A model generated the notes under the pieces. It was given only the letters and a program-made list of their open reading frames with translations. It made no database searches and was not told the origin of the DNA. Positions 13,328 to 17,123 of a DNA stretch of 64,000 nucleotides are shown here, one piece after another. Every line of letters begins with the position of its first letter. Within the stretch, counting starts at the first letter, position 1. Source of the stretch: a virus; the IMG/VR virus record IMGVR_UViG_3300028008_000005, positions 50,690-114,689 of that record; one strand, written 5' to 3'. The position numbers and the translations under genes were made by a program.

Positions 13328-15286
13328 CTAGAAGGGGTTTATAAAGTCCAGACGTTGAAGGTCGTCAGCTGATATACCCTGTGATATATTATTAGTTATA
13401 GCTGTAGCTGAATTAATGTTGCCACCTGATCTACCACCACCTCCACCGCTTGAAGCTTGAATAATAGTCATATTAGTTTGTGCAGCTGCTTGCGCTTTAT
13501 TGTCCATCATAGTATTAGTAGATGAGAGTACTGCTCCAGGTGTCGTAGCGGGCTCTATACGAGGTGCTAGAGGGGTAGGTTCACTGCCTTGTATAAGATT
13601 ATTAGATTGGTCTTCATCAGATCCTCTGATCATTGACCTCGTTCTGGTCTCTATAGTAGCTATAGCATCTTTCTTTTGTTCTACTAGCTTATTGTATTCT
13701 TCGGCTTCATCTCCAAAGAATCCTGCATTATCTTTTGCTTGAGCTCTTAGTTGTTCGTCGTTTGCGGTTGCAACGTTAAACTCAGGCTCTTCACCACCCA
13801 ACCAGGACGGCAGTATAGATTTAAGTTTAGCACTGATCTCGTCGAGAGACGGGAGGAAGTCAAACAGTTCTGAAAAGAAGTTTATAACATTATCAACTAC
13901 ACCGCCAATCATTTCGCGTAGGGAGAAACTTTCTTCTGGTGTCTCAAAGGCAAACATACCCATGATCCAGTTAATAGCCATATCAACAGGAGCAAAGAGT
14001 ATATCAAATAAGCCACCTTCACCTACTAGTCCTTCCCATAGGGCTTGCATTGTTTCAGCAATATCAAAGTTAGAGAATACTCCCTTTACCCAATCAACTG
14101 CTGAACCTACAATTCCGAATATACTATCAAACATTGAGGTAAACAATTCAGAGAATGAAAATGATTCTAGCATCTCTGCAGCGTTTTCAAATCCTAGCTT
14201 ACCCAATACCCAGGATACTATATTTTTAATAAAATCGAGGGGAACAGCAACAAGATTATCAAATAGGTTTGTTATCGCCCCTTGGATACCACCTATTAAA
14301 CCACCTTCTTTAAATCCTTCGATAAAGCCAGTAATAGCAGAAAATGCACCCAAAGCAATTGTAAAGGGCAGAAAGATTTTTCCAAAGATTTTTCCGACCT
14401 TACCCAAGGTTTGACCAAAAGATCTAGCCATTTTTAGTAAAGAAGAAAATCCTCGTATAATAGATCCGCCAAATATAGCAAAGAATCCTGCTAAGGCAAT
14501 ACCTATACCTTTAATATTTTCTCCTATAAGGACTTTTGCTGTTTCCCAATCGCCACCAATAATAGCTTGGATGGTCTTGTACATACCATCAAAGAAGTTA
14601 ATAACAGAATCAATTATCTTATATAATGTTTCCGGAGAGAATAGCATTAGGCCAATAGCACCAAGAGCGCCAATTAGTCCTGCACCTTTCTTAAAGTTAT
14701 CTGAGAACTTATCAAACTTATCCCCTACATTATCAAGACCGTTAGACATTTGAAGCAGGCGAGAGTTACCTTCTTCTGATAGTCTTCGATTCTCGCGAAT
14801 AGTCTCTTCGTCGTCTGCAGATGATTTAATTGTTTCTATCTGCTTAAGCAATAGATCCTTTTCCTCAGAGCTTATATCAGGATTCTCTAAACGCTCTGAT
14901 GTTTCTTCAAACGACTTCAGTAATGCCTTAGAGTTATCAGTAGATGATAATAGCCCATTTAAAGACTCAAGCTTATTACCAAGCTGCGCAACAGTCTTAT
15001 TTGCTAAAGTATCTTTCTTTTCTACTTTCATGTCTTCCACAAGCTTTGGAAGGCCAGTAAGATTAGCTAACTTATCACTTAGCATTTTCTTAGTACTATT
15101 TAATGCTTCTAGTTCTTTAGAGTGCACTCTAAGCTGATTAGTCAATTTCTTTTTGTTGTTTTTCCCCTCTGCAGACTCTCTGGCTTTTGAGATCCTACTT
15201 TGCTCATCTGTCGCAGCGGCAAGTTGATCTGTAACCTCTTTTAGTTGACTACTTAAACTATCTTCAGCCATTACCGTCTCTCTCAT
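13328..15286 (-). CDS. Tail tape-measure-like / gp29-type hub protein
   Basis: About 650 residues. An N-terminal coiled coil (1-190, SSQLKEVTDQLAAATDEQSR) is followed by hydrophobic, Gly/Phe-rich segments (about 205-440: GAGLIGALGAIGLMLF, IGIALAGFFAIFGGSI) and a low-complexity C-terminus with a Gly run. This is the look of tail tape measure proteins, which set tail length and are ejected with DNA; T4 gp29 does this job in the hub. It lies directly after the gp26 gene with its frameshift extension, where tape measures normally sit. The ATG at 15286 overlaps the extension's TGA; a second start at 15271 (MAEDSL) has a better GAGAGA Shine-Dalgarno. Confidence 0.75.
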   Translation of the reverse strand: MRETVMAEDSLSSQLKEVTDQLAAATDEQSRISKARESAEGKNNKKKLTNQLRVHSKELEALNSTKKMLSDKLANLTGLPKLVEDMKVEKKDTLANKTVAQLGNKLESLNGLLSSTDNSKALLKSFEETSERLENPDISSEEKDLLLKQIETIKSSADDEETIRENRRLSEEGNSRLLQMSNGLDNVGDKFDKFSDNFKKGAGLIGALGAIGLMLFSPETLYKIIDSVINFFDGMYKTIQAIIGGDWETAKVLIGENIKGIGIALAGFFAIFGGSIIRGFSSLLKMARSFGQTLGKVGKIFGKIFLPFTIALGAFSAITGFIEGFKEGGLIGGIQGAITNLFDNLVAVPLDFIKNIVSWVLGKLGFENAAEMLESFSFSELFTSMFDSIFGIVGSAVDWVKGVFSNFDIAETMQALWEGLVGEGGLFDILFAPVDMAINWIMGMFAFETPEESFSLREMIGGVVDNVINFFSELFDFLPSLDEISAKLKSILPSWLGGEEPEFNVATANDEQLRAQAKDNAGFFGDEAEEYNKLVEQKKDAIATIETRTRSMIRGSDEDQSNNLIQGSEPTPLAPRIEPATTPGAVLSSTNTMMDNKAQAAAQTNMTIIQASSGGGGGRSGGNINSATAITNNISQGISADDLQRLDFINPF

Positions 15287-15468
15287 CGACTTTGTTGTTT
15301 TATTCTTTGGTTCTCATCTTCGATATACTGATGTAATAACATAATATAAATCTCTCTTTCCCAAGGTAGCATATCATCTAATTCTGTTAATGAGTACTTG
15401 TGGTGCTGCATTAATGCAAAATTAGTCTTATAATGGTTCTCCAATGAATCATGAGAAAGACTTACGAG
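15283..15468 (-). CDS. -1 frame extension of gp26 (tail assembly chaperone-like)
   Basis: In the -1 frame after the gp26 slippery site lie 61 open codons, LVSLSHDSLENHYKTNFALM onward, with KYSLTELDDMLPWEREIYIM and DENQRIKQQSR, ending in TGA that overlaps the tape-measure ATG (ATGA). The segment is clearly protein-like, helical and charged. An internal ATG at 15408 has no Shine-Dalgarno, so independent translation is less likely than frameshifting. With the shift, a fusion of about 294 residues would be made. The arrangement mirrors the G/GT chaperone of lambda-like phages. Confidence 0.65.
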   Translation of the reverse strand, partial: LVSLSHDSLENHYKTNFALMQHHKYSLTELDDMLPWEREIYIMLLHQYIEDENQRIKQQSR

Positions 15469-16166
15469 AAAAAATTCTGTAAGCCCTCGATCTCAATATC
15501 ATTCTTTACTTTACAGCTTTGACACTGAAAAGATACTTTATGCTTAAGCTTAGGCATATCGTCAAAAAACGACGTAACCTTTTTAAACTGATCAGAAGTT
15601 AATGAATCAATAAACTCCATTAGACTCTCATCCGTTTCATTTTCTGATGCATAAACGTTCTCAGCATCGTAGATAGATTCAATTGAAGAGATAACAGCTG
15701 ACATTGCTGAGTCTGTATCATTGCTCTTCTGAAGCTGTCTATATAACCCTTTAACAGTCGGATACTTAACCATTAGACCAACTGTATCTGTTAGCTCAAT
15801 CTTGGCAGATGGTTTAATATCTCCTTCAACCTCGACGTCGTTTAAATTTATTTCCACCTGACTTGTCTTAGAACAGTCTGAGCATTTAATACCGAGGGTA
15901 GATGTCTCTCCCACTGACTTAGACCGAAGCTTAAGGAAGATGTACTCTAGATCAAAGATAGTAAGGTTATCAACCTTTACTTTACCCTCTGTACAACCTG
16001 CGATTGTATCACGAAGAGCTGATATCATTTGAGATTGGTCTTTTGTCTCAAACGCCATCATTAAGATCTTTTCTTCTTTAACTAAGTACGGCCGATATTC
16101 TACTACCTCCTTTGTACTCGGTACTTCTAAACTATATTTAGCTGCGACCAGCTTGGGTAATGCCAT
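15462..16166 (-). CDS. 26: gp26-like baseplate hub / tail assembly protein
   Basis: 234 residues from the ATG at 16166 (MALPKLVAAKYS), which has TTGGAG 8 bases upstream; that TTG is also an in-frame alternative start at 16178. It matches the T4 baseplate hub family that includes gp26 and gp51: the YRPYLVKEEKILMMAFE motif is diagnostic. Two CxxC pairs (CSDCS in the middle, CQSCK near the C-terminus) may bind zinc. In T4, gp26 works in hub assembly. The last codons read AAT TTT TTC TCG TAA, a slippery heptamer right at the stop. The tape-measure gene follows. Confidence 0.8.
   Translation of the reverse strand: MALPKLVAAKYSLEVPSTKEVVEYRPYLVKEEKILMMAFETKDQSQMISALRDTIAGCTEGKVKVDNLTIFDLEYIFLKLRSKSVGETSTLGIKCSDCSKTSQVEINLNDVEVEGDIKPSAKIELTDTVGLMVKYPTVKGLYRQLQKSNDTDSAMSAVISSIESIYDAENVYASENETDESLMEFIDSLTSDQFKKVTSFFDDMPKLKHKVSFQCQSCKVKNDIEIEGLQNFFS
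15468..15474 (-). promoter_or_regulatory. T_TTT_TTC slippery heptamer (programmed -1 frameshift site)
   Basis: On the coding (minus) strand the in-frame sequence is AA T TTT TTC TCG TAA, with the heptamer two codons before the gp26 stop. A one-base slip back enters the 61-codon extension. The form X_XXY_YYZ is correct with respect to frame. Confidence 0.65.
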
Positions 16167-16205: not shown

Positions 16206-17123
16206 TTAACCAGATAAACCTTTAACGGCTGAAGATGTTCGAGAGATAACAGCTTGTGATGCAGTACTTGCTGCTTCATTAACCGTTCCTCCTAGACCAG
16301 CACCGAATATATTTGTAACCTTTCCAGATATTTGTGAGATAACAGATCCAAGTGATCCTTCATATGGTATTGTTATAGATGCGGAATTACCAAGTATCTT
16401 ATCTCGAATTTGTGATGTAATAGAGTTAAGAGCAGTTGTCATCTCTCCAGCTAATTCTGATTTTAAACCTGCTAGAAGTGTTTCAGCCTGATCTCCCAAA
16501 TCCCCAAAAGGGAAGAAGGGGAGTGAAGGCATAAGTGGGTTAGGGAATGACAATGAGTTCTTAAACTCTGCTAATGATGATGCCAAAGTGAAGTATGTAG
16601 TGTTACTTTTAAAGTTATCATAGGTCATTGTAACAGTAAATTTCATGACCTGGCTTTCAGCGGTATTAGATAGCTCCATAGCACTAAATGAAATAGGGAA
16701 TGCTTTTTCTAGATTTACCCTATGTACCATTTTGCCATCAAGAGATAGCATTGTTATAGTCATATCAGAGGCATACTGCGATTTATAGTATATCTTACCG
16801 TCTTCGTCGTTTATAACGTGCTTCATCCACTTCTCAAATAGATTCTTAATATAGAAATCATTTGTAACTAAGAAGGTAAGAGTTACATCGTCGTTTATAA
16901 ACGTATAAGGTGTTTTAGTAGAATGCTTAGTGGTTACATGTTCGTTAGTAGATATAGAGCGACCAGGTAATGATGCAGACTCGCATATAGCGTTAACAAG
17001 AAACATATCTGGATTAATAGAAGCTGGACCATTAAACGTAATAGCAAAAAGATTAGGACGGGCTAATCCGCCACGCTCTGATATTCTTGAAGATAAATCC
17101 TGGACTGGAGAATCAAAAATCAT
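16206..17123 (-). CDS. 54: gp54-like baseplate tail-tube initiator
   Basis: 305 residues (T4 gp54: 320). The N-terminal half has a tail-tube-like beta fold pattern: GLARPNLFAITFNGPASINP, CESASLPGRSIST, then TFLVTNDFYIKNLFEKWM and FPISFSAMELSN, followed by an amphipathic helical C-terminus. gp54 sits on the baseplate and nucleates the gp19 tube; gp48 (18297-19085) is its paralogous partner and shares the tube-like pattern. The gene follows the 17126-17713 gene by two bases on the minus strand. Confidence 0.65.
   Translation of the reverse strand: MIFDSPVQDLSSRISERGGLARPNLFAITFNGPASINPDMFLVNAICESASLPGRSISTNEHVTTKHSTKTPYTFINDDVTLTFLVTNDFYIKNLFEKWMKHVINDEDGKIYYKSQYASDMTITMLSLDGKMVHRVNLEKAFPISFSAMELSNTAESQVMKFTVTMTYDNFKSNTTYFTLASSLAEFKNSLSFPNPLMPSLPFFPFGDLGDQAETLLAGLKSELAGEMTTALNSITSQIRDKILGNSASITIPYEGSLGSVISQISGKVTNIFGAGLGGTVNEAASTASQAVISRTSSAVKGLSG

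Follow-up and report, generated by a model that had tools for sequence, protein, structure and literature searches.

Does gene 26 at this locus specify a single protein, or are two proteins made from it by a ribosomal slip just before its stop codon? The window, by which we mean the whole 64,000-nucleotide stretch that was analysed, is the final 64 kb of a 114,689-base IMG/VR virus record. On its minus strand gp26 (15462..16166) encodes a zero-frame product of 234 aa that matches Pfam PF12322 (T4_baseplate, E=2.4e-62) and phrog_150 (E=1.8e-64) and is proposed to be a short tail assembly chaperone (TAC-N). Directly upstream is a tail tube-family gene (16206..17123, minus strand; phrog_45 tail tube, E=1.6e-37), and directly downstream of gp26 and its extension is a probable tape-measure gene (13328..15286, minus strand), identified by this position and a weak match to the tape-measure family phrog_3981 (E=0.0037). 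In some relatives a small ORF separates chaperone and tape measure.

The 3' end of gp26 reads AAT (15476-15474) TTT TTC (15470-15468) TCG TAA (15464-15462) on the minus strand. As the sequence-only reading of this DNA had claimed, it holds the slippery heptamer T_TTT_TTC (15468..15474, minus strand) in correct phase, with the gp26 stop two codons further on, and the -1 frame is open for 61 codons. This extension (15283..15474, minus strand), the 'gp51' domain, consists of FF followed by LVSLSHDSLENHYKTNFALMQHHKYSLTELDDMLPWEREIYIMLLHQYIEDENQRIKQQSR, which accounts for the 61 new codons, and a TGA at 15285-15283. The predicted gp26-51 fusion has the junction NFF-LVSL and a length of 294 aa, and is proposed as TAC-NC. 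The TGA had also been described as overlapping the tape-measure start; it does overlap ATG 15286, but the downstream gene has a second candidate start, ATG 15271, which is preceded by the purine-rich, better Shine-Dalgarno-like GAGAGAGACGG and may be the true start instead.

We compared this arrangement among related phages, using a first set of 160 loci to which more distant queries and named phages were later added. Wherever the first set yielded both parts, the extension lay in the -1 frame of gp26 (156/156 loci, the window counted). In the enlarged set T_TTT_TTN was present inside the overlap at 274 of 291 scorable loci, or 135/139 once near-copies were removed. The heptamer is carried by the Kyanoviridae P-SSM2, S-PM2 and Syn33 and by Pelagibacter phages, by Straboviridae (KVP40-like vibriophages, Cronobacter S13, Aeromonas AS-szw), and by Caulobacter Cr30, Rhizobium Pootjesviridae and Stenotrophomonas YB07, while the 17 loci without it belong to the Ackermannviridae and Vibrio D503. 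Within the window, in-phase T_TTT_TTN occurs only 3 times among the 21,621 codons that make up ORFs of at least 100 codons (spurious ORFs included), and one of these sites falls within 12 codons of a stop. A chance origin of the heptamer is untenable because the heptamer is conserved. The site is an in-phase X_XXY_YYZ heptamer within an ORF overlap, and heptamer and -1 ORF are kept beyond what codon usage would predict. Loss of the heptamer from relatives that keep the downstream ORF had been named as evidence that would tell against frameshifting; phages with a -1 extension retain the heptamer, save for the Ackermannviridae/D503 group, and T4-type loci without it have a separate full-length gp51 instead. 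The proposal of a programmed -1 frameshift is therefore supported: 274 related loci, spread over several families of phage, share the -1 frame, the heptamer and the extension.

A conserved xFF motif at the C-terminal end of the gp26 protein could leave such a heptamer as a side effect, and FF is indeed conserved; T4 gp26, which ends AGA GGC CTC AAA GAG TTC TTT GAG TTA CTA TAA, retains FF with the heptamer absent. Codon choice at the site, however, is far off background. Among 74 heptamer-bearing loci of <75% identity, the codon preceding FF was AGT, AAT, GAT, TCT or GGT, ending in T in 74/74, and the first Phe codon was TTT in 74/74, compared with 69% TTT and 31% TTC in the rest of gp26. From codon usage a T-ending codon followed by TTT would be expected in ~32/74 loci (log10 P for 74/74 ~-28, phylogeny ignored); as these loci were picked for the heptamer, this P merely measures the departure of codon choice from background, and the count free of heptamer-based selection is the 135/139 given above. 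The third codon of the site is TTC in 53 loci, TTT in 16, TTA in 4 and TTG in 1, so the zero-frame Phe can go while the slip site persists; in 5/74 loci FF has become FL with the site retained. A by-product of the protein motif would also leave the conservation of the extension in the -1 frame unexplained, and we give this reading almost no weight.

The extension behaves as coding sequence. It matches phrog_634 (baseplate hub assembly catalyst, E=4.4e-28), 62/62 aligned relatives match, and it also matches the C-terminal end of the phrog_150 profile, so that both parts are positive in profile searches for the gp26/gp51 family (PF12322). Its stop lies 58-70 codons past the slip in the 74 loci. 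At extension codons 5-10, differences split 34/19/47% over -1 frame positions 1/2/3; a check for synonymous constraint had been suggested, and differences shortly past the slip are indeed biased to third positions of the -1 frame. By these sequence criteria the -1 frame codes for protein from just past the slip. The phage collection contains 610 records with a match to the extension and 873 with a match to gp26, and database annotation of the extension varies between gp51, hypothetical protein and none.

Many cyanophages are annotated with the extension as a small gene of its own, gp51; its translation would then begin at an internal start codon, through re-initiation past the gp26 stop or coupling to it. 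An ATG is found at extension codon 21 in 58/74 loci, and in a minority of loci codon 5 or codon 10 is ATG or TTG. Yet the best anti-SD pairing at candidate starts has a median of -1.5 kcal/mol, against -1.3 at random sites and -6.3 at real gp26 starts, bearing out across the 74 loci the earlier remark that the internal ATG has no Shine-Dalgarno sequence (that ATG lies at 15411-15409, not at 15408 as had been given). Moreover, 2/74 loci have no candidate start, the -1 frame is already constrained at codons 5-10, before the candidate starts seen most often (codons 20-21) are reached, and a separate gene leaves heptamer conservation without a reason. We judge an independently started gp51 to be very unlikely. 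The 'gp51' stubs annotated in marine T4-like phages are very probably, as part of the best explanation of these data, extensions of gp26 with no gene of their own.

Upstream of the heptamer, pairing with the anti-SD sequence peaks between -17 and -8, at ~-6 kcal/mol, where the flanks are mostly at ~-1. The element at the peak is typically GGAGG, 9-10 nt from the heptamer; in the window it is CGAGGG (15484..15489, minus strand), at the same 9-10 nt spacing. Against synonymous resampling the family-wide element gives z = -7.4, and codon choice within it is biased: Glu is encoded by GAG in 30/42 cases versus 29% elsewhere (p = 1e-8), and Gly by GGA/GGG in 39/72 versus 27% elsewhere (p = 2e-6). 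In dnaX an SD sequence at similar spacing (~10 nt) upstream of the slippery site stimulates -1 shifting, and it is plausible from its sequence and position that the conserved GGAGG is a stimulator of the dnaX type. E. coli dnaX adds a downstream hairpin, whereas at gp26 none is distinctive: stem-loop z scores beside the site (~-0.9 to -1.0) do not differ from those elsewhere in the locus, and there is no consensus fold. Pairing of GGAGG with a downstream CCCUC, strong on average, was rejected as a candidate, its partners showing no covariation (z = -0.06).

The same element bears on whether the fusion could arise from transcriptional slippage at the T run instead of a ribosomal slip. Runs of 7-8 T occur in 16/74 loci and would suit a slipping polymerase; in 58/74 the run is just 6 T, which is short for polymerase slippage. 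Transcriptional slippage would also give no role to the fixed codon phase of the run or to an SD-like element at fixed distance, which plays no part in transcription, and we consider it slightly less probable even than an independent gp51. Comparison of the sequences shows heptamer, frame, extension and upstream element to be conserved, and a ribosomal -1 slip near the end of gene 26 almost certainly takes place, to judge from that conservation, here and in hundreds of marine T4 relatives.

How, then, does T4 make do without the heptamer? T4 gp26 (208 aa) and gp51 (249 aa) are homologous to the short and long proteins described here, with the difference that they come from separate, divergently transcribed genes and that the end of gp26 has no heptamer. 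PF12322 is matched by both, and the extension domain of gp51 matches phrog_634 (1.2e-23; profile alignment over residues 200-244), so that T4 gp51 is, by its profile matches, a full-length gp26-like domain plus the extension. This architecture, together with the loss of the heptamer from gp26, implies that in T4 two genes supply the short form and the long one, whereas most sampled relatives frameshift. Five more T4-type loci (L311-L314, L316) lack the heptamer at the same place, and phiAS4 has a two-gene layout like that of T4. Campylobacter CP220 has a single long in-frame gene, and the structure search also shows a separate CP220 gp26-like protein. As KVP40-like phages, S13 and AS-szw, all of T4's own family, frameshift, it is simplest to regard the two-gene layout as derived. 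A tree of the gp26 domain sets gp26, gp51 and frameshift types apart; as it has no root and its branches are long, it is by itself no proof of the ancestral state. We lean towards the view that frameshifting, tuned by the SD-like element, is ancestral in the wider T4 group, that T4 represents a derived split, and that the short 'gp51' gene of marine phages does not exist.

Several loci depart from the common pattern. The Ackermannviridae and Vibrio D503 loci (L178:2760-2963, L212-L226, L179) keep the extension with the canonical heptamer absent and have junctions reading GAG ATT TTC ATT TAA or CTT TTC AAG TAA; in L218 a -1 stop lies just 5' of the shifted stretch. The T4-type gp51 frame of L315:1501-2246 is broken after ~120 codons and resumes in another frame (two pieces by tblastn), which could be either a sequencing error or real. 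In L100 the gp26 frame stops ~60 codons early with the extension intact, and in L089, L134, L138 and L163 (Mosig) the gp26 stop lies many codons past the heptamer, giving a longer zero-frame tail. Vibrio phage SRILMA (L181:1464-2153) encodes a 229-aa protein whose C-terminus carries the extension motif in frame, possibly another single-ORF long form.

As encoded, the gene architecture yields a short form and a C-terminally extended long form. AlphaFold models gp26 with confidence (pLDDT 92), and among viral structures the model matches mostly gp26 homologues. In the PDB, Foldseek returned local fits over ~50 residues to 2ob9 (3.2 A) and 3fgx (1.7 A) with E values of 3.5-3.9, which are not significant; 2ob9 is the HK97 tail chaperone and 3fgx is treated likewise as a tail chaperone (PMC9603447). 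A PDB sequence search with both profiles found no chaperone and no homologue, and a structure search with the 63-aa extension gave no match. The genome position and the short/long architecture, together with the weak local structure fits, support a tail-chaperone role, and gp26 and gp26-51 are probably the short and long tail assembly chaperones.

We infer from this conservation and architecture that the shift takes place, how often it does so, what the upstream element does and that the pair acts as a chaperone. Most ribosomes would terminate two codons past T_TTT_TTC to give the 234-aa gp26. A minority would slip -1 at the heptamer, both Phe tRNAs re-pairing on UUU UUU with the aid of 16S rRNA pairing to the SD-like element ~10 nt upstream, and would read 61 further codons to give the rarer, 294-aa gp26-51. 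By analogy with lambda G/GT, surplus short form may coat the tape-measure protein, the extra domain of the long form may recruit tail-tube subunits, and both forms would be absent from the finished virion. It is highly likely overall that gene 26 gives rise to two proteins, a chaperone pair, by a -1 frameshift that the SD-like element assists, and that two separate genes provide this pair in T4.

The lambda gpG/gpGT pair likewise consists of a short form and one lengthened by a -1 shift, is encoded immediately before the tape measure, and has its heptamer just ahead of the zero-frame stop. It belongs to another protein family at the sequence level, and its slippery site is G_GGA_AAG; here the family is PF12322, the site T_TTT_TTC, and an SD-like element lies upstream. 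The chaperone of Pakpunavirus Adele and the Vandenendeviridae (PMC12846349) likewise has a conserved poly-T -1 site and a downstream ORF mis-annotated as a gene, but in another phage family and with a GTTTTT motif. Vladimirov, Gautam & Davidson 2022 (Virology 566:9) identified T4-like tail chaperones, probably of the same protein family, and its title favours a mechanism other than frameshifting. PMC12846349 names it as the source for poly-T frameshift signals in the TAC-N genes of T4-like phages, and PRFect cites it for two genes instead of a frameshift in 'some T4-like phages'. The core finding may be partly published already. The sequence-only reading knew of no description in T4-type gp26, but the chaperone role of T4-like genes and poly-T signals in some of them are credited to that work, and many genomes already list the extension as 'gp51'. 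In the searchable literature we found no description of the gp51 re-annotation, the marine spread or the SD-like element. The site is a well-supported, widely mis-annotated case of a known kind.

A comparison in 2010 found cyanophage gp51 to be 'only ~20% of the length' of T4's, with cyanophage and vibriophage gp51 lacking the first ~200 residues (PMC3037559); this puzzle is explained because the missing part is gp26. For many cyanophages and other marine phages with sequenced genomes, the finding puts right how a near-core gene is annotated, and it points to a candidate upstream stimulator that is open to testing. G-T frameshifting has been described as conserved across long-tailed phages except T4 (PMC5009743), and our results narrow that exception to T4's own branch, plus probably the Campylobacter phages.
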